Source: Deltaproteobacteria bacterium (lineage in GTDB: Bacteria > Desulfobacterota > Desulfarculia > Adiutricales > Adiutricaceae). Taken from it: a DNA stretch of 51,257 bases. The DNA lies in the NCBI GenBank assembly GCA_031264145.1, contig JAISEK010000024.1, positions 1 through 51,257 on the forward strand, given 5' to 3'. Within the stretch, counting starts at the first letter, position 1. The number at the start of each line of letters is the position of its first letter. A program made the position numbers and the translations under genes. Of the stretch, positions 1,451 to 18,242 are shown one piece after another. The notes beneath the pieces were generated by a model, which was not told the origin of the DNA, ran no database searches, and saw only the letters and a list, made by a program, of their open reading frames with translations.

Positions 1451-2956
1451 CTAATGATCAACAATATAGCTAAACGGATCTTTTTCATACCAGGATTTTC
1501 GATAAGGCAATGGACAATGTTCGGCCAGCAGATGATTGAAACTGCCGTTAAGCATTACCCGCCGCAGGTTTCTGGCAACCTCGAAAACTCCTGCGTAGCC
1601 CATGTAGGCATGAGAATTGCCAAACAGTGGCAATATAGGTATACCCTGCCTGGCCGAGATATTGTTGCTACCCGTGTGGCCCACGAAAACGTCCGGCTTG
1701 AGCCGCTGGATCAGGTTGACCTGCTCGAATGGCTGCTGGGTGCCCACTAAAAAAACAGTCCCTTCAAGGCCGGGCAGCTCCTCAAAGGCCGGTTCAGAGA
1801 AATGGTCAAAATGGTGGCCCTTAAAGCCGACTATCTCCAGGCCAAGATATCTGAGCAACTCGGCCGTGGCCACGATTCTGACCTCGCCGCCGGAAAGGAA
1901 GGCTTTCTTCCCTTGAAAAAACTCCCGATAGGGGACTATGGCCTCCTCCAGGATGGTCTCCTCGGCATCGATGAGCCGCCGGGCGCGATCAGAGAGTCCA
2001 AATCTGTCGGCGACTCCCAGAAGCCATCTGCCCGTGTTGCGAGGCCCAATCGGTATCGTGTCAATCATGAATGGTATGCCGAACAGGCTTTTCAGGTGCT
2101 CCAAAAAATAGTCGTCATGGGTCCCGCAAACGCTGACGTTTAACGCTGATTCCAGCGACTCCCTAAATTCCAGGCTCTCGGAGTAACATGGGAGAAAGCG
2201 GGTACGCAGATCCAGGACCCTGAGAAGGCGTTCCAACTCCAGTTCATCGGCCCTGGCCATGGAGGAGACATTGAGGATATTGACGGTGCGGCCCGCGATG
2301 TAACGACGCCTCATCTCTTGGAGTTCATCGTTTAATATCTTTTCATTGCTCTGGTCGTCATTCTTGCGCACAAGCGTTTTCAACAGGCCGTGGTAGACGT
2401 CATCGTAGGCCGTGGCCATGACCTTGCTTCTAAAGCCTGGACAATGGACTGGCACCAGTTTCGCCCCCACCTCCGCCTGGAGTCCGTGTAAAAGTGTATC
2501 CACATCATCGCCGACCAAGGCCGGCACGCAGGACACGGGGACGACGATTATCTCGGGTCTGAATTTCCTGTCGGCGTGGAGAATGGCTCTGGCCAATTTA
2601 TCCTCGCCACCGCCAACAACGTCGTTCTCACCCAGGTTCGTGTTGAGCCAGATCAGACCCTCGGCGGCTGGATCGCGCAAGCGGCGATATCCCTTGGCCC
2701 CGCCGGCACTGGCTATGACGCAGGAACCGCAGCCGATGGGCCCGTGCATGACAATCACGGCATTTCTAAAGGTGCTGGTTATGGCCAGGCTGAGGGTGAA
2801 TTCACAGCCATGGGTTTGACTGAACGAGCGTCTGGCCTGGTTCAGGCATCCCTGGCTGGCCGCACGGCGGGCCTCACGGCAGGTTCCGCCGAAGGCAACG
2901 CCCACTCCCAGCCGGTTCTCCCTTATCGGGGCGGCCTGGTTATCCAAGAAATTCAT
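1451..2956 (-). CDS. Nitrogenase component 1-like protein, NifD-type (second alpha subunit)
   Basis: About 501 residues from the ATG at 2956, which has an AGAGGT ribosome site six bases upstream. A TTG start at 3001 is possible but has no such site. In the 501-residue numbering, Cys51 (THGC), Cys76 (HGPIGC) and Cys143 (PVSC before GDD) match the three P-cluster cysteines of NifD. Cys277 (SVCGTHDDYF), followed by LFGIPFM and IGPRNTGRWLLGVA, lines up with the FeMo-cofactor cysteine region. The residue aligned with the NifD cofactor histidine, after GIP near the C-terminus, is not histidine. It is the last gene of the nine-gene operon, 53 bases after a NifK-like gene. By family it should form an alpha2beta2 iron-sulfur reductase, or a NifEN-like scaffold, that receives electrons from a NifH-type protein. 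The substrate is unknown. The residues differ enough from NifD that N2 reduction is not implied. Confidence 0.85.
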   Translation of the reverse strand: MNFLDNQAAPIRENRLGVGVAFGGTCREARRAASQGCLNQARRSFSQTHGCEFTLSLAITSTFRNAVIVMHGPIGCGSCVIASAGGAKGYRRLRDPAAEGLIWLNTNLGENDVVGGGEDKLARAILHADRKFRPEIIVVPVSCVPALVGDDVDTLLHGLQAEVGAKLVPVHCPGFRSKVMATAYDDVYHGLLKTLVRKNDDQSNEKILNDELQEMRRRYIAGRTVNILNVSSMARADELELERLLRVLDLRTRFLPCYSESLEFRESLESALNVSVCGTHDDYFLEHLKSLFGIPFMIDTIPIGPRNTGRWLLGVADRFGLSDRARRLIDAEETILEEAIVPYREFFQGKKAFLSGGEVRIVATAELLRYLGLEIVGFKGHHFDHFSEPAFEELPGLEGTVFLVGTQQPFEQVNLIQRLKPDVFVGHTGSNNISARQGIPILPLFGNSHAYMGYAGVFEVARNLRRVMLNGSFNHLLAEHCPLPYRKSWYEKDPFSYIVDH

Positions 2957-3054
2957 GAATACCTCTGAAGCGACTTTATTGACGGTCCTTTGATGGCTCA
3001 AGGCCTACCAGGGGATCCAAGATACGAAAAGTCCCCGGTCTCAGGATGGTGCCC

Positions 3055-4395
3055 TCAGCGTCCTGAGACCAGAAGGGAGAAGAGCTCGGCCGCCATATTC
3101 AGGCCACCGTCGTAGCCCATGCGGGATTCCTGAAAGACGACCCTGTTGGTGGCCGGAAAGGACATGATCATCAAGGGCCAGCCCCTCTCCGCGGCCAAAT
3201 CCCGCTCAAGGACGCTTCCAACCATGAAGGCCGGCCCAAGGCCATCGTAATAGCGCTGGTTTTGGTCAGGGGGGTGGATTTCCTGGAGATATGTCCTGAA
3301 AGAGGACGCATGGGGGTCAAACCGCACGGCTGGGGCCAGACCGCTCGCGAAACCCTGAAACCTCCCCGCGACCCTCAGGCGCTGTTCCTCGCCAAGCTGG
3401 TCGGTGACCATGCTCAAGGCTGGTATGTGTCCCAACTCATCGGCCAGGAACCTGGTGACCGCCGGGGCGTAGTTGGCATCGCCGATGACCAAAGCGTAAC
3501 GCTGGAGATCCACGTCGTTGTAGATATCGGCCACCCTCCCCAGGTAGTCAAAATACCGTTCCTCCTCCTCGGACACGACGCGCGAGACCAGGTCCTCGCC
3601 CAGTCCCAGGGCCTCGGATATTGCCGCCAGAAAGGCCCTGCTCTGTAGGGCGCCCACGGGAGGCGCGAGGGTCAGGTAGGGAGTTCCGTGGGTCTCCTCA
3701 AAGACCTTCGCGGCGGCTTGCCCATAAACGTCGGACAATACCAGGTTGAGCCCGGCCCGGCCCGCCTCCTTGAGGTCAGCCAACGTCTCGCCCTCGCCAA
3801 AGAAGGTGTTGGCCTTTATGCCCAGTCGGGACAATAGGCGCTTAATTTCCCTGAGGTTGCCCTTATAAAAGACATCCTGGCCTGGGACCAGCCCCCACAG
3901 ATTGACCACCTCCGGCCGTTTGGCCAGGCCCTTGGCCAGATATCCCTTGAACAGGCCGGCCAGGATGAGATCATAGCCGGTGAAGGAGTCACCGGCAAAG
4001 CCGGGCGTTGGCACGGCCAAGACGGGATACCCTTTCTGGGCCGCCTCCGCCGCCACCGAGACGATGTCGTCCCCAATCATCTCCACCGAGCAGCCGCTGA
4101 CCACCACGTACAATTCACTCTCCATAAGGTCAATCGTGGATTTGATTTGCTCCCTTAGGCGGTCCTCCCCGCCAAAGACGATGTCCTCCTCCAGGACATT
4201 GCTGCTACTCCAGCCCGCCCCGCCGCAGCAACCTCCCCCCAGGTAGCCCGCCCCGGCGTTCGTGGCCAGGTAGAGATTGTAACCGCAGCCAGACCCGGCA
4301 TGGATGATGGGCACCACTCCCTTCAATGCCCTGAGGGTGAAAAGTGCCCCTCCCAAGGCGCAGGTGAAACGCGGCCTGTCGATGAAATCATTCAT
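3055..4395 (-). CDS. Nitrogenase component 1-like protein, NifK-type (second beta subunit)
   Basis: A 446-residue NifK-family protein whose ATG is preceded by an AGGGAAG ribosome site. Cys12 (TCALGG), Cys37 (HAGSGC) and Cys102 (VSGCS before EMIGDD) are the three P-cluster-type cysteines. The C-terminal stretch FPATNR...MGYDGGLNMAAEL matches the NifK end (FPIFDR...GYQGGLN). It lacks the N-terminal extension of true NifK, so its length is closer to NifN. Unlike NifN, it keeps all three cluster cysteines. An unusual Gly/Cys-rich segment (YLGGGCCGGAG, residues 51-61) follows the second cysteine. The gene lies just before the second NifD-like gene and 347 bases after the first NifK-like gene, so the likely partner is the protein encoded at 1451-2956. 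Its role (catalytic or scaffold) cannot be decided from sequence. Confidence 0.85.
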   Translation of the reverse strand: MNDFIDRPRFTCALGGALFTLRALKGVVPIIHAGSGCGYNLYLATNAGAGYLGGGCCGGAGWSSSNVLEEDIVFGGEDRLREQIKSTIDLMESELYVVVSGCSVEMIGDDIVSVAAEAAQKGYPVLAVPTPGFAGDSFTGYDLILAGLFKGYLAKGLAKRPEVVNLWGLVPGQDVFYKGNLREIKRLLSRLGIKANTFFGEGETLADLKEAGRAGLNLVLSDVYGQAAAKVFEETHGTPYLTLAPPVGALQSRAFLAAISEALGLGEDLVSRVVSEEEERYFDYLGRVADIYNDVDLQRYALVIGDANYAPAVTRFLADELGHIPALSMVTDQLGEEQRLRVAGRFQGFASGLAPAVRFDPHASSFRTYLQEIHPPDQNQRYYDGLGPAFMVGSVLERDLAAERGWPLMIMSFPATNRVVFQESRMGYDGGLNMAAELFSLLVSGR

Positions 4396-4742
4396 GGTCT
4401 TCCCTGTTTGGGCCTGGTAGGAGCGAAAACAAGTGGCTAGTACATTGTTTGTCTTGGAATGTCGGATGAAGTCAGCTCAATTTCCGCAGTATCAACGTCG
4501 GTCTGGTCAGATTAATCCGAGCTATCTACACCCGTCACGTCAAGAAAGACAAGGTACTAGATTGCCCAGCCGCATGGCACTACCCAACCGGCATGGGGAA
4601 AGTTTCCCCGCGGCCGATTTCGCCCAAACGCCTAGCCAAACTCCTTGGACGTGAGGACGATGGCAAGACACCAGGTGAATGTTCCCAGGGACTGGCTGCT
4701 CCGACTCGGACCGGGCTGGCTAGATTGGTCTTCCTTTTTGGC
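4396..4742. other. Long intergenic gap inside the nitrogenase-like operon
   Basis: A 347-base gap separates the two NifK-like genes, in an operon whose other junctions are mostly overlaps or short gaps. No conserved open frame is evident. It contains a perfect inverted repeat (ggggaaagtttcccc) at 4595-4609, with no T-tract beside it on the transcribed strand. It could hold an internal promoter, a processing site or the scar of a lost gene. It is the natural dividing line between the two alpha/beta gene pairs. Confidence 0.45.
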
Positions 4743-6074
4743 TCAGGCCGATTTCCCCAAAACCAGGTTGTAGATGTCCTCCAGAAACCGCAGGCCCCCC
4801 TCGTAGCCAAGATAGCTGTGCCCCATAATGAGGCGATCATAGATTGGCAGGCTCACGCGCAGCAAATGTCCGTCATGGCGGGCAGCCAGATCCTTTTCCC
4901 AGGAGCTGGCCAGGATAAGGGCGCCACGCTCGGTGTCCAGGGCCTGATCCAGGCGATCCTGTATCAGGCCGCCGTCGTTTTCGAAAACCACCGGACCAAA
5001 ATCACCGGCCAGGTCCTCGAATTGCACGCTCACCTGGCATCGCTCCGATTCGGGAGGATTCTCCGTGGCGCAGATCAGACCAGGGCTGAAACCCATCTCA
5101 TTTACCAGAAAACGGCCCAAGGCCAGGGCGTAGGCACTGTCGGCAACGGCGTGAAACAATAAGGGCAACCCGTTTCTGGCCTCAGTCAGAAAATCGGCGG
5201 CCGAACCCAAATACCCATAAAATATTTCTTCCTCATCGTCGATGACCGATTTGACAATCCTCGGATCGATCTGGGCAAAATCGCCTATGGCCCGCAGAAA
5301 GCGGCTGGTCTCCACAGCTCCCACCGGCAGGGCCGGCCAGTGTAGAAAAGGGGTCCCATACCTGGTCTCCAGGGTCCTGGCCGTTTCCAGGCCAACCCAA
5401 GGCGAGAGCACAAGATTGAACCGCGCGCTTGGAATGTTTCGCCATTCCCCAAGTCCGGCCGAGTCATAGCCGAAAAGTATGTTGGCCCTGAGGCCAAGCC
5501 TCTCCAGCAGCATCTTGATTGTCCTGAGATCCCCTCTCCAGAAAGCGTCCTGACATGGAATAACCGAGAAGACATTGACCAGGCCAGGGTCGACGGGCGA
5601 CTCTTGGCCGTTCCCCAGGAACTGCTCGATGATGGCCAGCATCACCAATTCGTGCCCCAGGTAATTATTGCCCTTGAATCCACCGGTCTCGGCGTTGACG
5701 ACGGGAAAGCCTGATTGGCGATACTCCGCGGCGATGCTGGTCACGTCATCCCCGACGATATCCGAGGTGCAGCCGGTCAGGATCACGAAAAGGTCGCCAT
5801 CCATGACCTTGAGTGTCCCATCGATAGTCGAGCGCAGCTTTTGCTCTCCGCCAAAGACCACCTCGCTTTCGCTGAAATTGGTCGAGGGCACGGCTGACCC
5901 GCCTGCGTAGCCGGCTCCCTGTAGCCCTGCCTGATCGCCCAGGGCCCCGGAGATCTTGGAGCTGCAGCCTGGCCCGGCGTGAACTATGGGGATGGCCCTA
6001 GGGATGGCCAGGACAGTCTGCTGGGCCCCGATGGCGCAGACGTAGCGCGGTTGCTCCAAGGCCTCAGAACCCAT
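4743..6074 (-). CDS. Nitrogenase component 1-like protein, NifK-type (first beta subunit)
   Basis: A 443-residue protein homologous to the NifK-like protein at 3055-4395. Cys13 (YVCAIG), Cys37 (HAGPGC) and Cys102 (LTGCT before DIVGDD) give the full P-cluster-type set. The C-terminus (LPIYDRLIMGHSYLGYEGG) closely follows the NifK ending FPIFDR...GYQGG. The start codon lies inside the upstream NifD-like gene: the two genes overlap by 11 bases, which usually signals translational coupling and a stable one-to-one complex with that protein. The segment FGGEQKLRSTIDG is the NifK-type surface after the second cysteine. By family the protein acts in the cytoplasm as the beta half of an oxygen-sensitive iron-sulfur reductase. 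The substrate is unknown. Confidence 0.87.
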   Translation of the reverse strand: MGSEALEQPRYVCAIGAQQTVLAIPRAIPIVHAGPGCSSKISGALGDQAGLQGAGYAGGSAVPSTNFSESEVVFGGEQKLRSTIDGTLKVMDGDLFVILTGCTSDIVGDDVTSIAAEYRQSGFPVVNAETGGFKGNNYLGHELVMLAIIEQFLGNGQESPVDPGLVNVFSVIPCQDAFWRGDLRTIKMLLERLGLRANILFGYDSAGLGEWRNIPSARFNLVLSPWVGLETARTLETRYGTPFLHWPALPVGAVETSRFLRAIGDFAQIDPRIVKSVIDDEEEIFYGYLGSAADFLTEARNGLPLLFHAVADSAYALALGRFLVNEMGFSPGLICATENPPESERCQVSVQFEDLAGDFGPVVFENDGGLIQDRLDQALDTERGALILASSWEKDLAARHDGHLLRVSLPIYDRLIMGHSYLGYEGGLRFLEDIYNLVLGKSA

Positions 6075-7536
6075 CGCCCGATCTCCTGAACATGAATGGA
6101 TCTTGCGTCAGCCACCAGTCGGTATAGGGCGGCCTCGAATGTCTGGCCAGGTTTCGGGCGAAATTACGGGAGCGCAGGACCCTGATAATCATTCGTCCCG
6201 TATAGACAAGCCCGTCGTAACCGATCATCAGGTTGGCATCGGATGCGAAGAAGGTTGGTATCCCCATCTTGACTCCCGCCACCGGCAGGCCCTCGTGTCG
6301 GCCCATGAGAAGATCTGGCTTGAGTTGTCCCAGGATATTGACCAACTGGTATGGCTGTTTGTTGCAGACATGGTAATGGGGCATGTCGCCAATGAGGTCC
6401 ACGGCATTGTTGAGGCTATTGGTTTCCTCATAATCGTTATCGAACCGCAAATCGTGGTGAAAGCCAGTCATGCCCAACACTTTTAGCCCCAAGTCCTGGC
6501 AGATGGCCAACATGCTGTGGCCAAAGGAGGCTCCGGCCACCGCATAAACGGAAAGTCCGGAAAGCTCCTTTCTGATTTCTTCCAGCTTCGGTCCTATGCG
6601 ACGTCTTTCCTCAATGATGACCTTCTCTGCCAAGTCTGATCTGTCGGTTATCTGGCCTACCGCCCTCAGCCAGCGATCGCTCCAGTCAAGGCCGTAGGGC
6701 GGAGGGGATGGCACTTCCGGCACCCCAAACTCCTGCTCCAGGCCCCTGGCCAGATAGGTGCCCAATGTCTCGCACATGTGGGCACTGGCCGCAGCCTCTG
6801 ACATCCTCCCGAGTTCCTCGACGCTAGACTGGTGAACCAGATAATTGGCCTCAAGGCCCAGTTTGGCCAAAAAAGGCGTGAAGGCCGGCTCATTCGTAAA
6901 ACCCATGATGTTTATCAGGTTCCTGCGCTTTACCTTGGGAGGCTTTACCAGCTTACGCAAAATTGAGTGGTAGCAGGCGTCAAAGCCAGTTGTCCAGATG
7001 CGCGACTTGAAACCCTCGCAATAGACTGGAACAATGGGCACTCCAAGTTCCGCCTCGGCTTCCTGGCTGACTTGTTCCACGTCATCGCCTATGATGCCGG
7101 AGGCGCAAGACGTGGTGATGAAAATTGCCGCTGGGCTGAAACGCTGGTTCGCCAAGCGAATCGTGCGGGCAAGCTTGTCGGCTCCACCATAAACCATGTC
7201 AGATTCGGTCAAGTTGGTGCTCAGGGCCCTGAGATTATTGGCCGGCAGGCCACGATAGCCCAAGCCCCGGCGGAATTGGGAATTAAACAGGCTGAAATCG
7301 CCGGCACAACCAATGGGGGCGTGATTGACCATGGCCCCGTCGCGGATTTGCGATATTGGCAGCATGGCCCTCTGGGCCGAGCAATCGCCACACTGGTTGA
7401 ATGTGTTGTCGTGGCAACTCAGTCCTCCAGTGCGGGACAAGCGGCACAACTCGGAAGCCGGTCCGCGATAGCTTAACACGGAGCCCAGGCGATGCTCGCG
7501 GATGATGGCTTCTGGCGCATTAAGATCAATAACCAT
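6064..7536 (-). CDS. Nitrogenase component 1-like protein, NifD-type (first alpha subunit)
   Basis: A 490-residue protein; its ATG has a GAGG ribosome site about ten bases upstream. Cys52 (GDCSAQ), Cys77 (NHAPIGC) and Cys144 (TTSC before GIIGDD) match the P-cluster ligands. Cys255 (HMCETLGTYLARG, before EFGVP) sits at the cofactor-cysteine position. As in the other alpha protein, the residue aligned with the NifD cofactor histidine, after GIPTFFAS, is not histidine. The paired motif GFHHDLRFDNDYE corresponds to the NifD/E region around GYEFxHxxDYxR. It is coupled by overlap to the NifK-like gene downstream and follows the UroD-like gene after an AT-rich 115-base gap. It is one of two alpha subunits in the operon. 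Whether one pair is catalytic and the other a scaffold, or both are enzymes, is open. Confidence 0.87.
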   Translation of the reverse strand: MVIDLNAPEAIIREHRLGSVLSYRGPASELCRLSRTGGLSCHDNTFNQCGDCSAQRAMLPISQIRDGAMVNHAPIGCAGDFSLFNSQFRRGLGYRGLPANNLRALSTNLTESDMVYGGADKLARTIRLANQRFSPAAIFITTSCASGIIGDDVEQVSQEAEAELGVPIVPVYCEGFKSRIWTTGFDACYHSILRKLVKPPKVKRRNLINIMGFTNEPAFTPFLAKLGLEANYLVHQSSVEELGRMSEAAASAHMCETLGTYLARGLEQEFGVPEVPSPPPYGLDWSDRWLRAVGQITDRSDLAEKVIIEERRRIGPKLEEIRKELSGLSVYAVAGASFGHSMLAICQDLGLKVLGMTGFHHDLRFDNDYEETNSLNNAVDLIGDMPHYHVCNKQPYQLVNILGQLKPDLLMGRHEGLPVAGVKMGIPTFFASDANLMIGYDGLVYTGRMIIRVLRSRNFARNLARHSRPPYTDWWLTQDPFMFRRSGDGF

Positions 7537-7651
7537 TATTTAAGCCTCAAAAATTAAATATTAAATGATAATTATTACGCAATAACAAACAACAAATTTA
7601 TAAAAGATTATAAATGCATATATAGGCAATTTATATCCTGCCTACAATGAG

Positions 7652-8833
7652 TCATTCTTGCCAACGTCGGACTTGCTCGGCCAAGTCGTCAGCCTGGGAA
7701 GGGTGCTGGCAATCCACGGCCAGCAACAGGCCGTTGCGATTCAGGCCGGACATGATGGTCTCAACCTGGTCGGGCTTGACCTTGGTCAAAATCAGTTTTT
7801 TGCCATGGGCCTGGATACGTCTTCCGACTTCCAGGCTTGCCCGGCTGGTGTAGTCTTTGCGATAGTCCCCATGCCTGGCGTCATATCCAGGGACCGGATT
7901 CCACTCGACCGCCAGGAGACCCTCCAGGCTCAGCACTGGGTCCAGCAGGTGTCTTTGACCGAGGCCATCAAGGTTAAATATGGCCCGATCCAGACGCTCG
8001 ATCTGCCAGGCCAGGCATGGGATGATGAATTCCTCGAACATGGAGGCAGATATCATGACCGATGACTCGCTCATCAATTTGTACCAACGGCCTTGGTAGA
8101 CAAGGGGGCTGAAGGATGACAGACCTGCAAGGTGGGCGCCGATCCAGCTGAGATTTTCCTCGAAAAACTCCAGCCAAAGACGGTCTATCTCCGCCAGGGC
8201 AGCCTTGACGGGCCCAGGTCTGGCTATCAGGTCCATCAGGAGGGACTGCCGGTTGCGCAATGACCCCAGGACATCCAGGTTGCTCCCAATGTCGGTAACG
8301 CCAACGAAATACTGCCCTTCGGACTCCTCGGCCAGGAGTCGGGTGGTGTCGCGAATTGCCTGGTACAGGGGGTTGGCCCGATTCAGCGTAAAATTGCCGC
8401 GTAGCCTCCAGTCGTGGACAATTGGCTCGACATCAAACCAAATCGTCCCCTCGGCCAGTCGATAGGGGGCGCCGATAAGACCTGCCAAATTGCCGCAGCC
8501 AAAGTCAACGAATATGGTCGGCACCGCGTCAGCCGCCCAGTATCTTGCCCTCGCCTCTCTCTGGAGGGAGGCTACCCGGTACCCAATGTCAAACCAGCGG
8601 CCTTCCAGGGTATGTGGGATCGCCGGCTCTGGCAGATCGGCCATGGCCTTTGGATCGGGGGCGACTATCACGAAATAGGCGCCTTCGTCAGCCGCGCCAT
8701 TGTCAAAGAACCGGGCCTGCCGTCCAAGCCGGCGTCGCGTTTCCAAGGGCTCCAAAAACAAGGCTTGCCTCCTTAGGGTAATTGCCCTAAAGCCGACATC
8801 GCTTGGGGCTCCCCTGTCATATCTGGTAAACAA
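7652..8833 (-). CDS. Uroporphyrinogen decarboxylase-fold protein (UroD/MtaA-type superfamily)
   Basis: A 393-residue protein related to a UroD-like family often labelled corrinoid-methyltransferase-like or, wrongly, trimethylamine corrinoid protein. The signature FNLDGLGQRHLLD (residues 286-298), followed by AVEWNPVPG (308-316), is the barrel-end motif usually seen as HLDGPG..H..IQWVPG. The histidine normally before DGPG is Asn here. The apparent start is a TTG inside the upstream ATPase gene (17-base overlap); no in-frame ATG occurs for the next 60 codons. True UroD makes coproporphyrinogen, but relatives move methyl groups between methylated substrates, corrinoids and thiols. Placed between an importer and nitrogenase-like genes, it may prepare or accept a methylated substrate. 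That is inference. It lacks an obvious HxC...C zinc site of MtaA type. Confidence 0.75.
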   Translation of the reverse strand: MFTRYDRGAPSDVGFRAITLRRQALFLEPLETRRRLGRQARFFDNGAADEGAYFVIVAPDPKAMADLPEPAIPHTLEGRWFDIGYRVASLQREARARYWAADAVPTIFVDFGCGNLAGLIGAPYRLAEGTIWFDVEPIVHDWRLRGNFTLNRANPLYQAIRDTTRLLAEESEGQYFVGVTDIGSNLDVLGSLRNRQSLLMDLIARPGPVKAALAEIDRLWLEFFEENLSWIGAHLAGLSSFSPLVYQGRWYKLMSESSVMISASMFEEFIIPCLAWQIERLDRAIFNLDGLGQRHLLDPVLSLEGLLAVEWNPVPGYDARHGDYRKDYTSRASLEVGRRIQAHGKKLILTKVKPDQVETIMSGLNRNGLLLAVDCQHPSQADDLAEQVRRWQE

Positions 8834-9569
8834 ATGGACGCAGGGCCCTATCCAGGAACCGCCTGGTTCTCTCCTCCTTCGGTTCGTGGAAAATTTGACG
8901 AGCGTCTCCCTGTTCGACTATTAGCCCCTTGTCCAGAAAAACCACCGTATCGGCGACTTCCCTGGCGAAATGCAGCTCATGGGTAACGATGATCATGGTG
9001 TTGCCCTCTTTGGCCACCTGTTTGATGGCGGCCAAGACCTCTCCCACCAACTCTGGATCCAGGGAGCTGGTGGGCTCGTCAAAAAGAATGACCTCTGGGT
9101 TGAGGGCCAGGGCCCTGGCTATGGATACCCTTTGCTGCTGGCCGCCGGATAACCGTGAGGGATAATAGTCCATTCTGTCCCCCAGACCGACTTTCTCCAA
9201 AAGTCTCAGGCTTTTCCCCTTGGCCTCAGAGGTGGGCATTTTTTTTACAGTCGTTAGACCCACCATGACGTTTTGAAGAGCCGTCATGTTCTTGAAAAGG
9301 TTATACTGTTGAAAGACCATGGCCGTGGCAGCTCGCAGGGCCATGACGGCCTTGTTGTCGGCCTTGTCCACCTCCACAGAGAGCGATCCGATCTCAATCC
9401 TTCCGCTTGATGGTTTTTCGAGAAAATTCACGCAGCGCAGTAAAGTCGACTTGCCCGACCCGCTTGGTCCCAACACGGCCATCACCTGACCCTTTTCAAC
9501 CTCCAGGCTCACGTCCCTCAGCACGTGGTGCTGATCGAAATATTTGTTCAAGGCGCTTAGGCGGATCAT
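8817..9569 (-). CDS. Polar amino-acid-type ABC transporter ATPase
   Basis: A 250-residue cytoplasmic ATPase of the GlnQ/HisP family. Walker A GPSGSGKS is at residues 34-41, the Q-loop region FQQYNLF near 86-92, the signature LSGGQ at 140-144 and Walker B ILFDEP at 161-166, followed by the D-loop SSLD and the switch histidine in VTHELHFA. It should drive uptake together with the permease encoded directly upstream; the two genes overlap by four bases. It also overlaps the following UroD-like gene, so transport and the unknown chemistry are co-expressed. The family imports amino acids, opines and sulfur compounds such as cystine. The exact substrate cannot be read from the ATPase. Confidence 0.93.
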   Translation of the reverse strand: MIRLSALNKYFDQHHVLRDVSLEVEKGQVMAVLGPSGSGKSTLLRCVNFLEKPSSGRIEIGSLSVEVDKADNKAVMALRAATAMVFQQYNLFKNMTALQNVMVGLTTVKKMPTSEAKGKSLRLLEKVGLGDRMDYYPSRLSGGQQQRVSIARALALNPEVILFDEPTSSLDPELVGEVLAAIKQVAKEGNTMIIVTHELHFAREVADTVVFLDKGLIVEQGDARQIFHEPKEERTRRFLDRALRPFVYQI

Positions 9570-10288
9570 TCGACAAGTTTCCTCTCGTAGACCCTGGCCC
9601 TCTTCTCCAGCTCGGAGAGAATTCTGGCCAGAAGAATGCAGGTTAGCCAGTAGATGATTGAAACCGAGATGTAGACCTCGAAAAATTTAAGTGTCCGGGC
9701 GCCGATAATCTGTGATTGGCCCATTATGTCCACGACCGAAATCATGAATATCAGGGATGTGTCTTTCACTGTGCTTATGAGAGTATTCCCGTAGTTTGGC
9801 AGTATCCCGAGGAGAGCCTGCGGCAAAATGACTTTGCGCATGAGTTGTCCCCTCGTAAGGCCAATGGAGATGCCGGCCTCGAACTGGCCGCGGTCGACAG
9901 TCTCTATGGCCGAACGGATGGTCTCGGACAGGTAGGCACCCAGATTCACTGCGAAGGCGCCCACGGCAAAGGCCACTGGCGGAATCAGATTGAAGTTTAT
10001 TTGCCCGAACCAACCATGGGCGCGGTAAAGATAGTCAAAGAAACGGGGTACGCCATAATATACCAGGTACAATTGGACCAAAAGAGGCGTACCCCTGATG
10101 AATGATACGTAGAAGCCTGCCATATGCCTGATGACGGGAACCTTGTATACCTTGATCAGGGCAATTGTCAGGCCTATCGCCGTGGACACAAGCATAGCCC
10201 CAAATGTCACCCCCAGGGTTACTGGCAGGCGTGAGAGTATCTTGGGCATGTTTGTGAATATGGCTTGAACATCGAGTAGCTCGTACAT
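9566..10288 (-). CDS. Polar amino-acid-type ABC transporter permease
   Basis: A 240-residue integral membrane protein of the HisM/GlnP (HEQRO) family. Several hydrophobic helices are evident, from LGVTFGAMLVSTAIGLTIAL onward. The cytoplasmic coupling loop EAGISIGLTRGQLMRKVILP is the EAA motif that docks onto the ATPase. The N-terminal LSRLPVTLGVT is typical of the family. A single permease gene implies a homodimer. It sits between two binding-protein genes (upstream) and the ATPase gene (four-base overlap), forming a complete importer. Confidence 0.92.
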   Translation of the reverse strand: MYELLDVQAIFTNMPKILSRLPVTLGVTFGAMLVSTAIGLTIALIKVYKVPVIRHMAGFYVSFIRGTPLLVQLYLVYYGVPRFFDYLYRAHGWFGQINFNLIPPVAFAVGAFAVNLGAYLSETIRSAIETVDRGQFEAGISIGLTRGQLMRKVILPQALLGILPNYGNTLISTVKDTSLIFMISVVDIMGQSQIIGARTLKFFEVYISVSIIYWLTCILLARILSELEKRARVYERKLVE

Positions 10289-10319
10289 TAAGATCTCCAG
10301 GCGTTCCTATTTATCTCCA

Positions 10320-11138
10320 CTATTTTGGCACTCCCTTGTCGGTACCGATCCACTTTATGGCCAATTGGCTCAATGTGCCGTCTTTCTTGAGTTCCTTGAT
10401 TATTGCGTCCACTTTTGACTTGAGCTCCGTGCCTTCTTCATCCTTCCTGAAGGCGAAGACATTGTCATAGACCAAAACAGGTTCGCCCACAATCTGGACA
10501 TTCAAATCTTTCTCCTGCAGTACCCTGTTGATGTTGGTATATTCCTCGACCCAAGCGTCCACCCGCCCGTCGGCCACCTCTATCAAGGGGTCAGCCATGT
10601 TTCCCGAGGCCTTGACGAAACGGATGTCAATCTGGCCGCCATGCTCATCGTTCCATTTTTGTAGCCCCGCAGCCACGCCGGTGCCCACGACGGCAGCCAA
10701 AGTCTTGCCGCGTAAGTCCTCCAGGGAATTTATGTCGGTCCGGCCTTTCTTGACGGCCAAATAGTTCTGGCTCTGAAAATAGGGCTCGGAGAGGTTATAT
10801 TTCTCAGCGCGTTCCTCCGTCCAATTGAACCCCACGGCGACCATCTGGGTCTTGTTGGACTCCAGTCCCAAAAGAATCCCGTCCCAGGCACTGACAGAGA
10901 ATTCCAGCTTGTACTCAGGCAATCGTTCAAAGATGCCCCGTACCACCTCAACGTCATATCCGGTCAAACGATCGGACTCGTCAATGAAAAAAAATGGCGG
11001 AAAATCGGGCTGTGTGGCCACGTAAATTGTTTTGTGGCCGTCCTGCGCCACGACAGGGTCAGGGTAAAAGGACGACAATACAAGCGCGAGAATAGTCAAA
11101 AAGGCAAGACGCGTGGGTAAATATCTGTCGTTTGCCAT
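10320..11138 (-). CDS. Periplasmic solute-binding protein, family 3 (amino-acid type), copy 2
   Basis: A 272-residue SBP_bac_3 protein with an AAGGAG ribosome site. Residues 1-32 form a Sec signal peptide ending in VVAQ. The mature start VATQPDFPPFFFIDESDRLT is the typical ligand-pocket entry of this family (usually TxxxYPPFxFxDxxGxxxGYDV), followed by GYDVEVV and GLESNKTQMVAVG. It is clearly paralogous to the next binding protein upstream, sharing phrases such as AVKKGRTDINSLEDL and QPDFPPF. It delivers the solute to the single permease of this operon. Two binding proteins for one permease suggest either two related ligands or two affinities. Confidence 0.92.
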   Translation of the reverse strand: MANDRYLPTRLAFLTILALVLSSFYPDPVVAQDGHKTIYVATQPDFPPFFFIDESDRLTGYDVEVVRGIFERLPEYKLEFSVSAWDGILLGLESNKTQMVAVGFNWTEERAEKYNLSEPYFQSQNYLAVKKGRTDINSLEDLRGKTLAAVVGTGVAAGLQKWNDEHGGQIDIRFVKASGNMADPLIEVADGRVDAWVEEYTNINRVLQEKDLNVQIVGEPVLVYDNVFAFRKDEEGTELKSKVDAIIKELKKDGTLSQLAIKWIGTDKGVPK

Positions 11139-11172
11139 GAGTTCTCCTTTTCCGGACGATAGCTAATCTGCC

Positions 11173-11979
11173 TTATTCAGGCACCCCGGCTTCGCTGCCC
11201 GTCCACTCAAGGGCAAGGGCTTTTAAGGTGCCATCGGACTTCAACCTGTCAAGACCGGCATTAATTTTGTCTTTAAGGGTCAGTCCCAGTTCGTCCCTTC
11301 GGAAGACGTATATGATTGGGAGCTTTAAAATTGGCTCGCCGACCGTCTGTATATCCAGGTTTCGCTCTCTGACGACATGGTTGAAGTTGGCCAGATTTTC
11401 CACATAGGCGTCCACCCTGCCGTTTGCCACGTCTTGGAGTGGATCCGTGTAATTGGTGGCCTTGGTGTATTGGATTCTGATTTCGCCTCCGTTTTCCTCG
11501 TTCCATTTCTCGATGGCCAAGGCCGGGGTCGTGCCCACCACCAACTCCAATGTTTTGCCTTTGAGATCCTCCAGGGAATTTATGTCGGTCCGGCCCTTTT
11601 TGACCACCAGATGGACCAGGACGTTGTAGTAGGGGCTCGATAGATGGTATCTGGCCGCCCTCTCCTCGTTCCAGGTCATGTTGTCGGCGATAATCTGGGT
11701 CTTGTTTGATTCCAGGCCAATGGTTATCCCGTCCCAGGAGCTAGGCAAGAAGTCCAGCTTGTATTCTGGTAGATTTTCGAAAATAATACGCAAAATCTCC
11801 AAGTCATAGCCGGTCAAGCGGCCGTTACCGTCAGCGAAGCAAAACGGCGGGAAATCTGGCTGTGTCCCCACGATGACCGTTTGGGGCGCTTGCTGGGCCT
11901 TGGCCTGGCCAAATGGGATGAGAGCCATGCCAAGAGAGCAAAAAATAAGCAGAGCTGCGAACAAGCCTTTGTTTTTCAT
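11173..11979 (-). CDS. Periplasmic solute-binding protein, family 3 (amino-acid type), copy 1
   Basis: A 268-residue binding protein, the first clear gene of the operon, with a strong GGGAGGAG ribosome site. The signal peptide covers about residues 1-28 (ending AKA). The pocket motifs QPDFPPFCFADGNGRLTGYD and GLESNKTQIIADNM follow. It shares the VKKGRTDINSLEDLKGKTL block with the copy encoded 34 bases downstream, so the pair arose by tandem duplication. One difference is a cysteine in the pocket entry (FCF here, FFF in the other). The ligand is unknown; the family accepts amino acids, their derivatives and some sulfur compounds. Confidence 0.92.
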   Translation of the reverse strand: MKNKGLFAALLIFCSLGMALIPFGQAKAQQAPQTVIVGTQPDFPPFCFADGNGRLTGYDLEILRIIFENLPEYKLDFLPSSWDGITIGLESNKTQIIADNMTWNEERAARYHLSSPYYNVLVHLVVKKGRTDINSLEDLKGKTLELVVGTTPALAIEKWNEENGGEIRIQYTKATNYTDPLQDVANGRVDAYVENLANFNHVVRERNLDIQTVGEPILKLPIIYVFRRDELGLTLKDKINAGLDRLKSDGTLKALALEWTGSEAGVPE

Positions 11980-13144: not shown

Positions 13145-13525
13145 TCAGTCGGCGGCGGCGATGACGTCGATCTCCACGTCCAGGCCATCATCCAGGCCGG
13201 CCACGGCCAGGGCGATGCGGGCCGGCGGCGAGGTCTTGAAGAACTCCCTGTAGACCTCGTTCATCTGCGGCTTTAGGCTCAGGTCGCTCAGATAGACGTT
13301 GACCTTGAGGGCCCGCTCCAGACTGGAGCCGGCGGCCTTGAGGATGGCCTCTATGTTGGAGAGGACCAGGCGGGTCTGCTCGGCGACGGAGCCCCGGACG
13401 GGCTGGCCCGTGCCTGGGTCCTCGGAGGTCTGGCCGGACACGAAGACCAGGTTCCCGTGCCTGACGGCCTGGGAGTAGGGCCCCGGCGGAGGGGCCATGG
13501 GGGTGTGTATTGTCTCTCTTTTCAA
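13145..13525 (-). CDS. ridA: RidA family enamine/imine deaminase
   Basis: A 126-residue cytosolic trimeric protein of the RidA (YjgF/UK114) family. The family signatures are present: GPYSQAV near residue 15, FVSGQT near 28, and PARIALAV at about 100-107, which supplies the arginine that binds the substrate carboxylate. RidA hydrolyses reactive enamine or imine intermediates released by PLP enzymes such as threonine/serine ammonia-lyase, giving a 2-oxo acid and ammonia. A PLP ammonia-lyase gene lies about 1.3 kb upstream in the same operon, so the pairing makes biochemical sense. It is the last gene of the catabolic operon. Length is normal. Confidence 0.95.
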   Translation of the reverse strand: MKRETIHTPMAPPPGPYSQAVRHGNLVFVSGQTSEDPGTGQPVRGSVAEQTRLVLSNIEAILKAAGSSLERALKVNVYLSDLSLKPQMNEVYREFFKTSPPARIALAVAGLDDGLDVEIDVIAAAD

Positions 13526-13613
13526 GGTTTCCTTCCTCGGCTGGGCCGCCCGGACGCCTGGGGCCCGGGCGGGGAGGTGTGGGCGCGGCCGGGGGGCCGC
13601 CAGTGGGCCAGGC

Positions 13614-14792
13614 CTACTTCCTGATGAGCTCCCTGGGGAAGCTGGCCAGGCACTCGCAGCCGGTCTCGGTGACCACGATGGGCTCGCTGCACTCGAAGCC
13701 GAAATCGTCCAGCCAGACCCCGGGCATGACGTGGATGGTCATCCCGGGCTCGAGGACGTTCTTGTCGCCGGGCCGGAGGCTCACGGTGTGCTCGCCCCAG
13801 TCCGGGGGATAGTTCAGGCCGAAGGCGTAGCCCATGCGTGACTCCTTGACCACCTTGGTGCCGCTGATGGCCCGGCGCCAGCGACCCTCGACCTCCTCGC
13901 CGGTCACCCCGGGCCTGATGAAGTCGAGGACCGCCTCGAGGCCGCCGATGACGCCCTTGGCCACCTCCTCGAGGGCGGCCGGGGCCTGACCGATGATGAG
14001 GGTCCGGGAGAGGGGGGCGTGGTAGCGGTGCTTGTTGCCGGCCAGCTCCAGGAGGACCAGGTCGCCCGTCTCGTACCGGCGGTCGACCCAGGACAGGTGG
14101 GCCGTGGAGGTCCTGATGCCCGAGGGCATGATGGGCATGATGGAGGCGTAGTCGCCGGTGAACTCGTCGGTCCCGGAGAGCTGGGCCTTCACCGTCTCCC
14201 CGGCCGCGTCGCCCTCCCTGGCCCCCGCTCGGATGGACTCGGCCGCCTTGGCCATGACCCTCTCCACGATCCTGGCCGCCTGGCGCATGTAGCCTATCTC
14301 GGCCGGGGACTTGACCAGCCTGACCCAGTTGACCAGGAGGTTGGCGTCCAGGATGGTGGCCTGGGGGAGGTTCTGGGTCAGGGACTTGAGGCACTGGCCG
14401 CTGAAGTAGTAGTTGTCGGTCTCCACCCCCAGGCGGCGGCGGTCGGCCCCGAGCTCGGCGAGCAGCGAGGCCACGAAGTCCATGGGGTGGCGGAGGTTGG
14501 ACTGGACGAAGTGGTCCTGGTAGCCCCGGATGCTCTGGTCCTGGAGCCAGCTGGTCAGGCGGGCCCCGTTGGAGTCCTGCATCCGCCCGAACCAGACGGG
14601 CTCCTCCAAGTCCATCAGGACCAGGAGGCCCTGGTGGACGTAGAACGACCAGCCGTCGTAGCCCGAGAGGTAGTTGATGTTTGCCGGGTCGGACACCAGG
14701 AGGACCTCGAGGCCCTGGCGGTACATGGCCTCCTTGGTCCGGGCCAGCCGGGCCTGGTACTCGGAAAGGGAAAACAAAGGATCCTTGTTCAT
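13614..14792 (-). CDS. Creatinase/ectoine hydrolase-like M24-fold protein, copy 2
   Basis: A 392-residue pita-bread-fold (M24) hydrolase resembling DoeA/EutD ectoine hydrolase. The N-terminal creatinase domain includes LLVSDPANINYLSGYDGWSF (residues about 31-50), typical of DoeA-like proteins. The C-terminal domain lacks the aspartates that bind metal in true aminopeptidases: the usual VDLG...SDITRT is LELAG...APLSRT here. A metal-independent amide hydrolase like creatinase is therefore likely. It is 60-70% similar by eye to the copy encoded at 17076-18242. In ectoine breakdown this family opens the cyclic amidine to N-acetyl-diaminobutyrate. Here the true substrate is not fixed by sequence, and two diverged copies may open two related compounds or form a heteromer. 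Confidence 0.85.
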   Translation of the reverse strand: MNKDPLFSLSEYQARLARTKEAMYRQGLEVLLVSDPANINYLSGYDGWSFYVHQGLLVLMDLEEPVWFGRMQDSNGARLTSWLQDQSIRGYQDHFVQSNLRHPMDFVASLLAELGADRRRLGVETDNYYFSGQCLKSLTQNLPQATILDANLLVNWVRLVKSPAEIGYMRQAARIVERVMAKAAESIRAGAREGDAAGETVKAQLSGTDEFTGDYASIMPIMPSGIRTSTAHLSWVDRRYETGDLVLLELAGNKHRYHAPLSRTLIIGQAPAALEEVAKGVIGGLEAVLDFIRPGVTGEEVEGRWRRAISGTKVVKESRMGYAFGLNYPPDWGEHTVSLRPGDKNVLEPGMTIHVMPGVWLDDFGFECSEPIVVTETGCECLASFPRELIRK

Positions 14793-14839
14793 GCGTTCTC
14801 CTGGGTTGGGGCGCCCATGGGCCGGCCTGGGGGCCGGGC

Positions 14840-15835
14840 CTAGGCGACCGGGTCTTTCTTCATGGCCTGCCCGACCAGCGAGTGGAGGAGGCCCGGGTCG
14901 ACGTTGCCGCCGGAGAGAATCAGGGCCGCGGGGCCCTTGGGCCTGGCCTTCCCGGCCAGGATGGCGGCGATGCCCACCGCCCCCGAGCCCTCGACCACCA
15001 GGCGCTCGCGGGCGAAGGCGTGGGCCATGGCCGCGGCTATCTCTTCCTCGCTGACCAGGACGATCCGGTCGAGGTATTTCTGGGTCAGGCGGAAGGTGAA
15101 ACGGTTCTCGAGCCCAATCCCGCCCAGGAGGGCGTCGGCCAGGCTGTCGCGCTCGGGAATCTCCACGGGCCGCCCGGCCTCCAGGGATCTGGCCATGGCC
15201 GGGGCCACGGCCATGGAGACGCCGACCATCTCAATCCGGGGGTTTATGGCCTTGGCCGCCAGGGCCACCCCAGAGAAGAGGCCGCCGCCCGAGAGGGGGA
15301 CGATCAGGCTGGCCAGGCCCGGGAGGCTCTCGGCGATCTCCAGGGCCATGGTCCCCTGGCCGGCGATGACCAGCGGGTCGTCGAAGGGGGCGACCATCGC
15401 CAGCCCCCGCTCGCCCTGGATCTCCAGGGCCCTCCGGAAGGCCTCGTCCTGGCTCTGGCCGAAGGCGACCACCTCGGCCCCCAGCTCCCTCATGGCCTCC
15501 AGCCGGTAGCCGGGCACCCGCTCGGAGAGGCAGACCACGGCCGGAAGATTCTCCGCCCGGGCCACGCTGGCCACGGCCCGGCCGTGGTTGCCGGTGGAGA
15601 AGGCGATGACGCCGCGGCTTTTTTCCTCCCGGGAGAGGGACAGGATTTTGTTGGCCGCCCCACGGACCTTGAAGGAGCCAGTGGGCTGGAGGGTCTCCAG
15701 CTTGAGGAAGACCTCCGCGCCTGTGAGGCGGCCAAGGGCCTGGGAGCGGATCAGGGGCGAGCGGATGGCCCGTCCCCCGATGCGGGCGCGGGCGGCGTAG
15801 ACGTCGGCCAGGGTCGGGCAGTCCGTCACGGTCAT
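14840..15835 (-). CDS. PLP-dependent threonine/serine ammonia-lyase-like protein (EutB-like)
   Basis: A 331-residue fold-type II PLP enzyme. Lys56 in PTGSFKVRGA forms the Schiff base, STGNHGRAVA is the asparagine loop and SGGGLFSG binds the PLP phosphate. There is no C-terminal ACT domain, so it is a short catabolic-type enzyme rather than biosynthetic IlvA. The family removes ammonia from hydroxy-amino acids (threonine, serine, hydroxyaspartate) and includes EutB of hydroxyectoine utilisation. The neighbours RidA, the DoeA-like hydrolases and the M20 deacylase point to a step late in breakdown of an acylated amino-acid derivative. Confidence 0.88.
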   Translation of the reverse strand: MTVTDCPTLADVYAARARIGGRAIRSPLIRSQALGRLTGAEVFLKLETLQPTGSFKVRGAANKILSLSREEKSRGVIAFSTGNHGRAVASVARAENLPAVVCLSERVPGYRLEAMRELGAEVVAFGQSQDEAFRRALEIQGERGLAMVAPFDDPLVIAGQGTMALEIAESLPGLASLIVPLSGGGLFSGVALAAKAINPRIEMVGVSMAVAPAMARSLEAGRPVEIPERDSLADALLGGIGLENRFTFRLTQKYLDRIVLVSEEEIAAAMAHAFARERLVVEGSGAVGIAAILAGKARPKGPAALILSGGNVDPGLLHSLVGQAMKKDPVA

Positions 15836-15850
15836 GGCAAAACCTCTCTT

Positions 15851-17032
<1,182 letters not shown>

Positions 17033-17075
17033 TTCCTGCTCCCTGCCCTCTTGGGGGCGGAAAGGGTGGGCGGGC

Positions 17076-18242
17076 TCACGGGGTCAGGATGCCCCTGGGG
17101 AAGCTGACCAGGGGCTCGCAGCCCCCCTCGGTGACCAGGATGGGCTCGCTGGACTCGAAGCCCAGGTCGTCCTCCCAGATCCCGGGCATGACGTGGAGGG
17201 CCATGCCGGCCTGGAGGACCGTCCCGTCGCCCGGCCGGAGGCTGACGGTCCGCTCGCCCCAGTCCGGGACGTAGCTGGCCCCGATGGAGTAGCCCAGCCT
17301 GGAGGGCTTGACCACCCCGTAGGGGGCGGTGGCCTCGCGCCAGCGGGCCTCGACCTCCTCGGCCAGGACCCCGGGACGGATGAAGCCCAGGACGGCCTCC
17401 ACGCCGGAGAGGACGGCCTTCTCGACATGGCGGAGCTTCTCGGGGGGCCGGCCCAGGAACACGGTCCGGGAGAGGGGGCAGTGGTAGCGGAGATGGACGC
17501 CGCAGAGCTCGAGGAGGACCAGGTCGCCGCTGGCGTAGGCCCTCCCCGGATCCCAGCCCAGGTGGGCGCAGGACGTCCTCTCGTTGGAGGGCATTATGGG
17601 GAAGATGGCCGGGTGGTCCCCGCTGGCCCCGTCGGCGCCCAGCAGGCAGGCCCGGTAGACCTCGGCCGCCGCCTCGCGCTCGAGGCGCCCGGGCCTCACG
17701 TTGTCCACGGCCGCCCGCATGACCCCCTGGCAGACCAGGGCCGCCTTTTTGAGGAAGCCTATCTCGGCCGGGCTCTTGACCAGGCGGCACCAGTTGACCA
17801 GGCCGGTCGCGTCCAGGGGCTCCCGGCCCAGCTCACGGGCCAGGGTGGCCTGGCACTTGGCCGTGTACCAGTAGTTGTCGGCCTCGGCGGCCACGGCCTT
17901 CCGATCCAGGCCGAGCTCCCGCAGGAGGCCGGCCACGAAGGACATGGGGTGCCTCTGGGGATTCTGGACGTAGCCGTCCTCGTAGGGCCTGATGCTCCCG
18001 GGGGCCAGGTAGGTGGTCAGGCGGGCCCCGTTGCCGTCCATGCCCCGGCCCCACCAGACCGGCTCAGGGAGGTCCAGGGAGACCAGGAGGCCCTGGTGGA
18101 CGTAGAAGGACCAGCCGTCGTAGCCGGTCAGCCAGTGCATGTTGCTGGGGTCGCTGACGATGAGGATCTCGATGCCCCTGCTGGACATCGAGTCCTTGAC
18201 CTTTTGGAGCCTTTCGGCGTATTCGTCCAGACCGAAGTTCAT
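17076..18242 (-). CDS. Creatinase/ectoine hydrolase-like M24-fold protein, copy 1
   Basis: A 388-residue paralogue of the protein at 13614-14792. It shares the N-terminal VSDPSNMHWLTGYDGWSFYV region, the metal-less C-terminal pattern (LELCG...CPLSRT) and the end ESSEPILVTEGGCE. True M24 metal ligands are absent, as in creatinase and DoeA. The two copies are separated by the ammonia-lyase and M20 genes, so they are not a simple adjacent duplication. Differences such as HWLTG versus NYLSG and the C-terminal loops suggest different substrates or a two-component enzyme. Confidence 0.85.
   Translation of the reverse strand: MNFGLDEYAERLQKVKDSMSSRGIEILIVSDPSNMHWLTGYDGWSFYVHQGLLVSLDLPEPVWWGRGMDGNGARLTTYLAPGSIRPYEDGYVQNPQRHPMSFVAGLLRELGLDRKAVAAEADNYWYTAKCQATLARELGREPLDATGLVNWCRLVKSPAEIGFLKKAALVCQGVMRAAVDNVRPGRLEREAAAEVYRACLLGADGASGDHPAIFPIMPSNERTSCAHLGWDPGRAYASGDLVLLELCGVHLRYHCPLSRTVFLGRPPEKLRHVEKAVLSGVEAVLGFIRPGVLAEEVEARWREATAPYGVVKPSRLGYSIGASYVPDWGERTVSLRPGDGTVLQAGMALHVMPGIWEDDLGFESSEPILVTEGGCEPLVSFPRGILTP

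Follow-up and report, generated by a model that had tools for sequence, protein, structure and literature searches.

Our analysis of a 51,257-nucleotide contig from a Deltaproteobacteria bacterium (JAISEK010000024.1, assembly GCA_031264145.1; hereafter the window) revealed two nitrogenase-like alpha/beta pairs, D1K1 and D2K2, encoded within a run of nine minus-strand open reading frames (ORFs) at positions 1451-11979, and a four-gene reductase core that recurs in at least six related genomes. Judged by its sequence, D1K1 is a close relative of the methylthio-alkane reductase MarDK of Rhodospirillum rubrum, and D2K2 falls into a separate, uncharacterised clade lacking the arginine that is a hallmark of MarDK. 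We propose, with a probability of roughly 60%, that the two nitrogenase-like reductases form the basis of an organosulfur-scavenging system. To our knowledge, the reaction has been established for only a few nitrogenase-like enzymes that act outside tetrapyrrole synthesis. Since the proteins of the D2 clade keep all ligands of the large clusters but not the hallmark arginine, they would lend themselves to examining how the surrounding protein determines the reaction of one and the same cofactor, and the link of two such enzymes to cysteine synthase leads to testable predictions, namely anaerobic use of organic sulfur and a possible release of hydrocarbons.

The two reductase pairs and their clades

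The preliminary description of this DNA had read the run as nine same-strand genes, four of them for component 1-like proteins, two of the NifD and two of the NifK kind, each having three cluster cysteines, and our ORF, Pfam and alignment results bear out this content. D1 (6064..7536), K1 (4743..6074), K2 (3055..4395) and D2 (1451..3001) match PF00148 at 215-247 bits (Pfam cut-off 28.6). All score far under the cut-offs of the NCBIfam models for Nif, Anf, Vnf, NifEN, Bch and Cfb proteins, the highest scores being 152 bits for D1 and 145 bits for D2 against a nifE cut-off of 505.

The best match of D1, a MarD-type alpha subunit, and of K1, a MarK-type beta subunit, in the Protein Data Bank (PDB) is MarDK (9fmg/9d9u), at 444 and 451 bits; anything else reaches at most 121 and 93 bits, a lead of more than 300 bits for each. 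Identity is 43% between D1 and MarD and 47% between K1 and MarK. In the MarDK structures determined by cryo-electron microscopy (cryo-EM), Cys270 and His429 are cluster ligands, Arg428 is a hallmark residue and Trp195 and His375 belong to the substrate site (PMC12552129). When aligned to the sequences of these structures, the P-cluster cysteines correspond to C52/C77/C144 of D1 and C13/C37/C102 of K1, and C255, R413 and H414 of D1 to MarD Cys270, Arg428 and His429. These three residues, as well as His375 and Trp195, are kept in 11/11 members of the D1 clade. The alignment of NifK with MarK is unreliable near the N-terminus, and NifK was therefore excluded as a contrast.

MarDK is also the top PDB match of D2 and K2, at 215 and 257 bits, with identities of 30% (D2 to MarD) and 34% (K2 to MarK). 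Here the P-cluster cysteines are C66/C91/C158 in D2 and C12/C37/C102 in K2, and Cys292 and His442 of D2 stand for the two cofactor ligands. All 24 proteins of the D2 clade possess the three cysteines of the P-cluster together with Cys270 and His429 (MarD numbering), and all 24 lack Arg428, which adjoins His429 in MarD. The change extends to the surrounding wall: MarD Phe199 is replaced by Tyr in every member, and Trp195 usually by Met or Val. Since both pairs retain all of the MarDK cluster ligands, D1K1 and D2K2 should, by this measure, each hold a P-cluster and an [Fe8S9C] cluster.

Trees were computed with IQ-TREE using NifD, AnfD and Bch references, the main reference labels being checked by NCBIfam. 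The D1 clade (support 99/95; 11 proteins) unites the genomes of the cassette-bearing family with Kineothrix and the genome G639, and is distinct from the characterised Mar clade (100/100). The D2 clade (94/97; 24 proteins) lies outside the D1 and Mar clades as well as the gut/Nfa clade, which has 100/99 support in the alpha-subunit tree. In support of the preliminary description, neither pair is placed inside a characterised clade. Two NflDK pairs of Heliophilum fasciatum (G063; L110 and L133) are members of the D2 clade in this tree. The K tree, being of low resolution (K1 66/96, K2 77/100), served in support only.

The conserved cassette and its sulfur context

An order found in this genome only is one outcome that the preliminary description had reckoned with, and it holds for the full nine genes, which were seen in the window alone, yet not for the core. 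D1-K1-X-K2-D2, where X is a variable position, occurs in the window's genome (G000) and in G006, G014, G031, G013 and G011, and split over two contigs in G020, altogether in five genera of one family including that of the window. X is a cysteine synthase in G006 and G014, confirmed for G006 by TIGR01139 (403 bits, cut-off 351). In G011 it is a NifH gene, and the same run holds a cysteine synthase, a NifB-like radical S-adenosylmethionine protein and Ssu-type importers. In G031 and G013 no gene was identified at this position, and a tandem or decayed second D1 is found; three loci (L245, L246 and L247, of G031, G020 and G013) show tandem duplication of D1 inside or beside the cassette, with the second copy decayed in G013. 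The conserved unit is made up of four reductase genes, not of the nine that had been described as one layout.

Each pair also stands by itself. D2-clade pairs are found without any D1-type pair in G019 and G046, and D1K1 without D2K2 in Kineothrix and G639. The G639 locus (L248) is self-contained, encoding a cysteine synthase, NifB, NifH, D1, K1, a FeMo-Co-binding protein and a PAAT importer, with a Cys/Met-type pyridoxal phosphate (PLP) enzyme about 1.4 kb beyond it. In Kineothrix (L224), a PAAT importer and a Cys/Met PLP enzyme of the cystathionine-lyase type, the latter downstream, accompany the D1-clade pair. A PAAT importer likewise adjoins a D2-clade pair in G002. Cysteine synthase accompanies the pairs, lying between them or at their side, in G006, G014, G011, G012, G019, Sporomusa and Paenibacillus, the last four being cases of adjoining D2-clade pairs, and has been reported next to group IV nifDK in a termite spirochaete (PMC13067680). 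Because cysteine synthases, cystathionine-lyase-type enzymes and cystine-type importers recur in this way, we favour a sulfur-containing substrate, and a role of the cassette in sulfur metabolism appears well supported by its genomic context. Of the small molecules proposed earlier as substrates, sulfur compounds are hence preferred, and no support was found for methylated amines.

Two minor features were noted around the relatives' cassettes. The NifB-like gene of G011 (C19:19340-20185) contains one in-frame TGA in our scan (L151:19349-20000), and a cobalamin riboswitch (69.6 bits; L244:17588-17789, minus strand) lies some 9 kb upstream of the cassette in G014, beside other genes.

How does the cassette relate to systems already described? 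MarBHDK of R. rubrum (9fmg, 9d9u), which converts methylthio compounds to methanethiol and hydrocarbon, shares with D1K1 the ligands of the P-cluster and the [Fe8S9C] cluster, the Arg428-His429 motif and a context of sulfur assimilation. It differs from the present system in its clade, in having H and B genes, and in lacking a second alpha/beta set and the cysteine synthase of the relatives; D2K2 is further removed by its missing arginine and by a clade outside both Mar and Nfa. IsrBHDK of Rhodobacter capsulatus, a group IV nitrogenase-like enzyme adjoining a dedicated sulfur-compound ABC importer, ssuABC, shows a comparable arrangement (PMC11423573), but the importer family is different here, and D1 and D2 keep all P-cluster cysteines and cofactor ligands, whereas IsrD keeps one of three P-cluster cysteines and neither the cofactor Cys nor the His (PMC11423573). 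The Nfa/group IV-A enzymes (Endomicrobium, Heliophilum NflDK1) have related subunits, the same cofactor ligands and multiple nfl pairs per genome; they form a separate clade, however, and no fixed twin cassette is described for them (PMC9147875). The H. fasciatum pairs L110 and L133, although of the D2 clade like D2K2, lack a D1K1 partner in their cassette. In type I mlp clusters, homologues of UroD-fold methyltransferases occur near group IV-A MarHDK-like genes, and a role in methyl-sulfur metabolism has been proposed (PMC10418091). The window operon departs from these clusters in that its UroD-like protein is without the zinc motif and a corrinoid protein is absent; the mlp picture is matched better by a second locus of the same genome, C66, described below.

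The coupling to an importer, part of the layout put forward earlier as new, is therefore preceded by Isr, just as the MarHDK-like genes of mlp clusters precede the association with a UroD-type protein. Among the group IV nitrogenase-like systems, to which we assign the cassette, its novelty lies in the twin arrangement and in the arginine-less clade. Our search of open-access full text found no published description of the twin cassette; subscription papers, e.g., North et al. 2020 in Science, lay outside that search. The view that the layout is unlike that of known relatives accordingly stands for the twin cassette, and is weakened by the closeness of D1K1 to MarDK.

Proposed pathway and alternative explanations

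In conjunction, these observations lead us to the following model. A cystine-type (Tcy/PAAT) importer would take up a small, probably amino-acid-like organosulfur compound. A NifB-like enzyme encoded elsewhere in the genome would make the [Fe8S9C] cluster, and NifH-like protein(s) from the loci C66 and/or C78 would give electrons in trans. D1K1, to judge from its clade and residues, would cleave a C-S bond reductively, and D2K2, with its different active-site wall, may use another sulfur species or carry out a second step. The thiol or sulfide so released would be assimilated by cysteine synthase. The genes for cofactor and reductase supply are observed: C78 of G000 carries NifB-like, FeMo-Co-binding and NifH-like genes, a NifH-like gene is also located at C66, and NifB-like and NifH-like genes are present in 9/9 genomes checked, among them G006, whose NifB-like match covers a C-terminal stretch only in a genome 74% complete. 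As noted, G639 and G011 have both genes within the reductase locus itself. We speculate, as a more specific and in this exact form unlikely version, that the cassette is a two-step desulfurase, in which D1K1 would convert an imported thioether to a thiol such as methanethiol, D2K2 would cleave the second C-S bond to yield sulfide for the cysteine synthase that lies between the pairs in relatives, and one NifH would serve both. Such a division would explain why both pairs are kept around cysteine synthase, and in G011, with its one NifH gene, the two pairs would have to share the protein.

Several observations weigh against the organosulfur model. The sister grouping of the D1 and Mar clades is weak (81/41), and MarD His194 and Cys73-Gln74 are not kept in D1, so that the substrate of D1 may differ from that of MarDK. 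The window operon, unlike the Mar operon, is without cognate H and B genes, and it has no cysteine synthase of its own. The permease and ATPase are closest to cystine Tcy models but stay under the equivalog cut-offs, and the importer is not next to the cassette in G014; import and reduction therefore need not be one pathway.

The last point leads to an explanation in which the two pairs share a location but no function, and in which the Tcy importer and the UroD-like gene belong to an unrelated transcription unit. A 115-bp AT-rich spacer upstream of D1 (7537..7651), the G014 arrangement and the occurrence of UroD homologues away from D/K genes are all in keeping with it. We nevertheless hold it to be rather unlikely, given that PAAT importers adjoin pairs of the D1 clade (Kineothrix, G639) and of the D2 clade (G002), that in the congener G005 a D2 remnant follows a broken UroD gene, and that the core order is retained over five genera. 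It is conceivable, too, that D2K2 is a NifEN-like scaffold maturing the cofactor of D1K1. Two alpha/beta pairs per cassette recall nifDKEN, and such a compact DKEN-type cassette would agree with the compatible branching orders of D1 and D2 across the cassette genomes and with the missing Arg428. That each pair stands alone elsewhere, however, argues against D2K2 serving as a scaffold only. K2 moreover has all three cysteines where NifN, in our alignment, has one, and MarDK is described as holding the cluster made by NifB with no maturation on an EN scaffold (PMC12552129). We consider a scaffold quite unlikely.

Imported sulfonates, as used by the isethionate reductase IsrBHDK with ssuABC, are improbable substrates. 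The layout of importer and nitrogenase-like genes is common to both systems (PMC11423573), and importers of the NMT1/Ssu type lie beside the cassette of G011 as well as at the C40 and C78 loci, but the importer adjoining the window cassette is of the PAAT/Tcy type, and the ligand loss of IsrD finds no counterpart in D1 or D2. Fixation of N2 by one or both pairs, an activity that has been suggested for Nfa, a group IV-A enzyme of Endomicrobium proavitum (PMC9147875), is highly improbable in our view. The window's genome is devoid of canonical nif genes, and Nfa enzymes are related to the D1 clade; yet N2 is no substrate of MarDK, whose ligands are the same (PMC12552129), the cassette's neighbours are sulfur-assimilation genes and importers, and G006 and G014 carry canonical-scoring nif genes besides the cassette.

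Operon structure, the UroD-like gene and further loci

In transcription order the run comprises SBP1, SBP2, permease, ATPase, UroD-like, D1, K1, K2 and D2, separated by 34, 31, -4, -17, 115, -11, 347 and 53 bp (negative values denoting overlap). SBP1 (11173..11979) and SBP2 (10320..11138) are family-3 periplasmic binding proteins by Pfam (SBP_bac_3), and the closest natural PDB relative of SBP1 is Bacillus subtilis YtmK (TcyK). The PAAT-type permease (9566..10288; BPD_transp_1) has as its top NCBIfam model the cystine permease PRK15100, at 181 bits against a cut-off of 300, and the PAAT-type ATPase (8817..9569; ABC_tran) has TcyN, at 321 against 406; neither score places the importer in the TcyJKLMN-type cystine family. 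Since the 115-bp gap between the UroD-like gene and D1 is 22% GC and possibly a separate promoter region, a single nine-gene transcript is only putative. Promoter matches are unspecific, though they number 21 against 10 in shuffled sequences, and an Rfam search found no riboswitch in the window. The 347-bp gap between K1 and K2 (4396..4742) has no recognised gene, and a NifH remnant sought there was not found. The probable start codon of D2 is the ATG at 2956, where homologues align, and not the TTG at 3001. GC content is 55.8% over 1451-11979 and 63.8% over window positions 13001-50000.

The UroD-like protein (7652..8833) has no Pfam, NCBIfam or PDB match. It may be assigned to the UroD superfamily, as a remote member, on the basis of a profile comparison with zinc UroD-fold methyltransferases (95% probability, E=2e-8) and of weak PF01208 matches of its homologues; an AlphaFold model of the protein alone was discarded (predicted local distance difference test score 36). 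The H-x-C...C zinc motif is missing in this protein and in five homologues, which places it outside the MtaA/Mlp type, so that of the UroD/methyltransferase fold proposed earlier the superfamily stands and the methyltransferase motif does not. No D/K gene accompanies the intact homologues of G008, G010 and G021 on the stretches examined, and the gene was rejected as a marker of the reductase system; distant homologues in G037 and G039 adjoin a corrinoid protein. In the congener G005 (C132; L138:6200-7400), a broken UroD-like gene is directly followed by a decayed N-terminal fragment of D2, which, from its sequence, is what remains of a locus combining UroD with D2 in the genus of the window. 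With no general linkage to the reductase genes, the protein is treated as a putative species-local accessory outside the conserved core.

Next to the run, a convergent plus-strand gene (592-1362) encodes a 256-aa protein with weak zinc-ribbon matches and no family above cut-off. On the other side (13145-18242, minus strand) lies an amino-acid-related run of a RidA-like protein, two M24 (creatinase-type) peptidases, a PALP-family enzyme that is threonine-dehydratase-like by inspection, and an M20 peptidase.

G000 contains ten nitrogenase component-1 genes in all; high-scoring nif-type genes are found in the congeners G001, G002 and G006. A second nitrogenase-like operon (L094; C66:8000-27900) combines a MetNIQ-type importer, a cysteine-synthase-like PLP enzyme, a glutamine-synthetase-like ligase and UroD with a D2-clade pair, followed by a 739-aa 4Fe-4S protein of weak reductive-dehalogenase/QueG similarity, a corrinoid protein, UroD, NifH and UroD; a similar locus is present in G003 (C32; L218). 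At C78:25000-44000 (L096), NifH, an alpha/beta pair and the NifB-like and FeMo-Co-binding genes accompany an Ssu/NMT1-type importer. The alpha subunits of this type (5 members) appear by sequence to form another uncharacterised clade, which keeps the three P-cluster cysteines and Cys270 and has lost the equivalents of His429 and His375; identification of the locus as Isr was rejected, its D subunit having all three P-cluster cysteines. At C40:1-16000 (L095), another pair of the D2 clade is accompanied by an importer of the NMT1 type; G003 has a similar locus (C36; L217). Sporomusa sp. KB1 (L077, L158-L162, L270) has 24 component-1 matches in one genome, including Mar-like, D2-clade and C78-clade pairs, several of them beside UroD, corrinoid and cysteine synthase genes.

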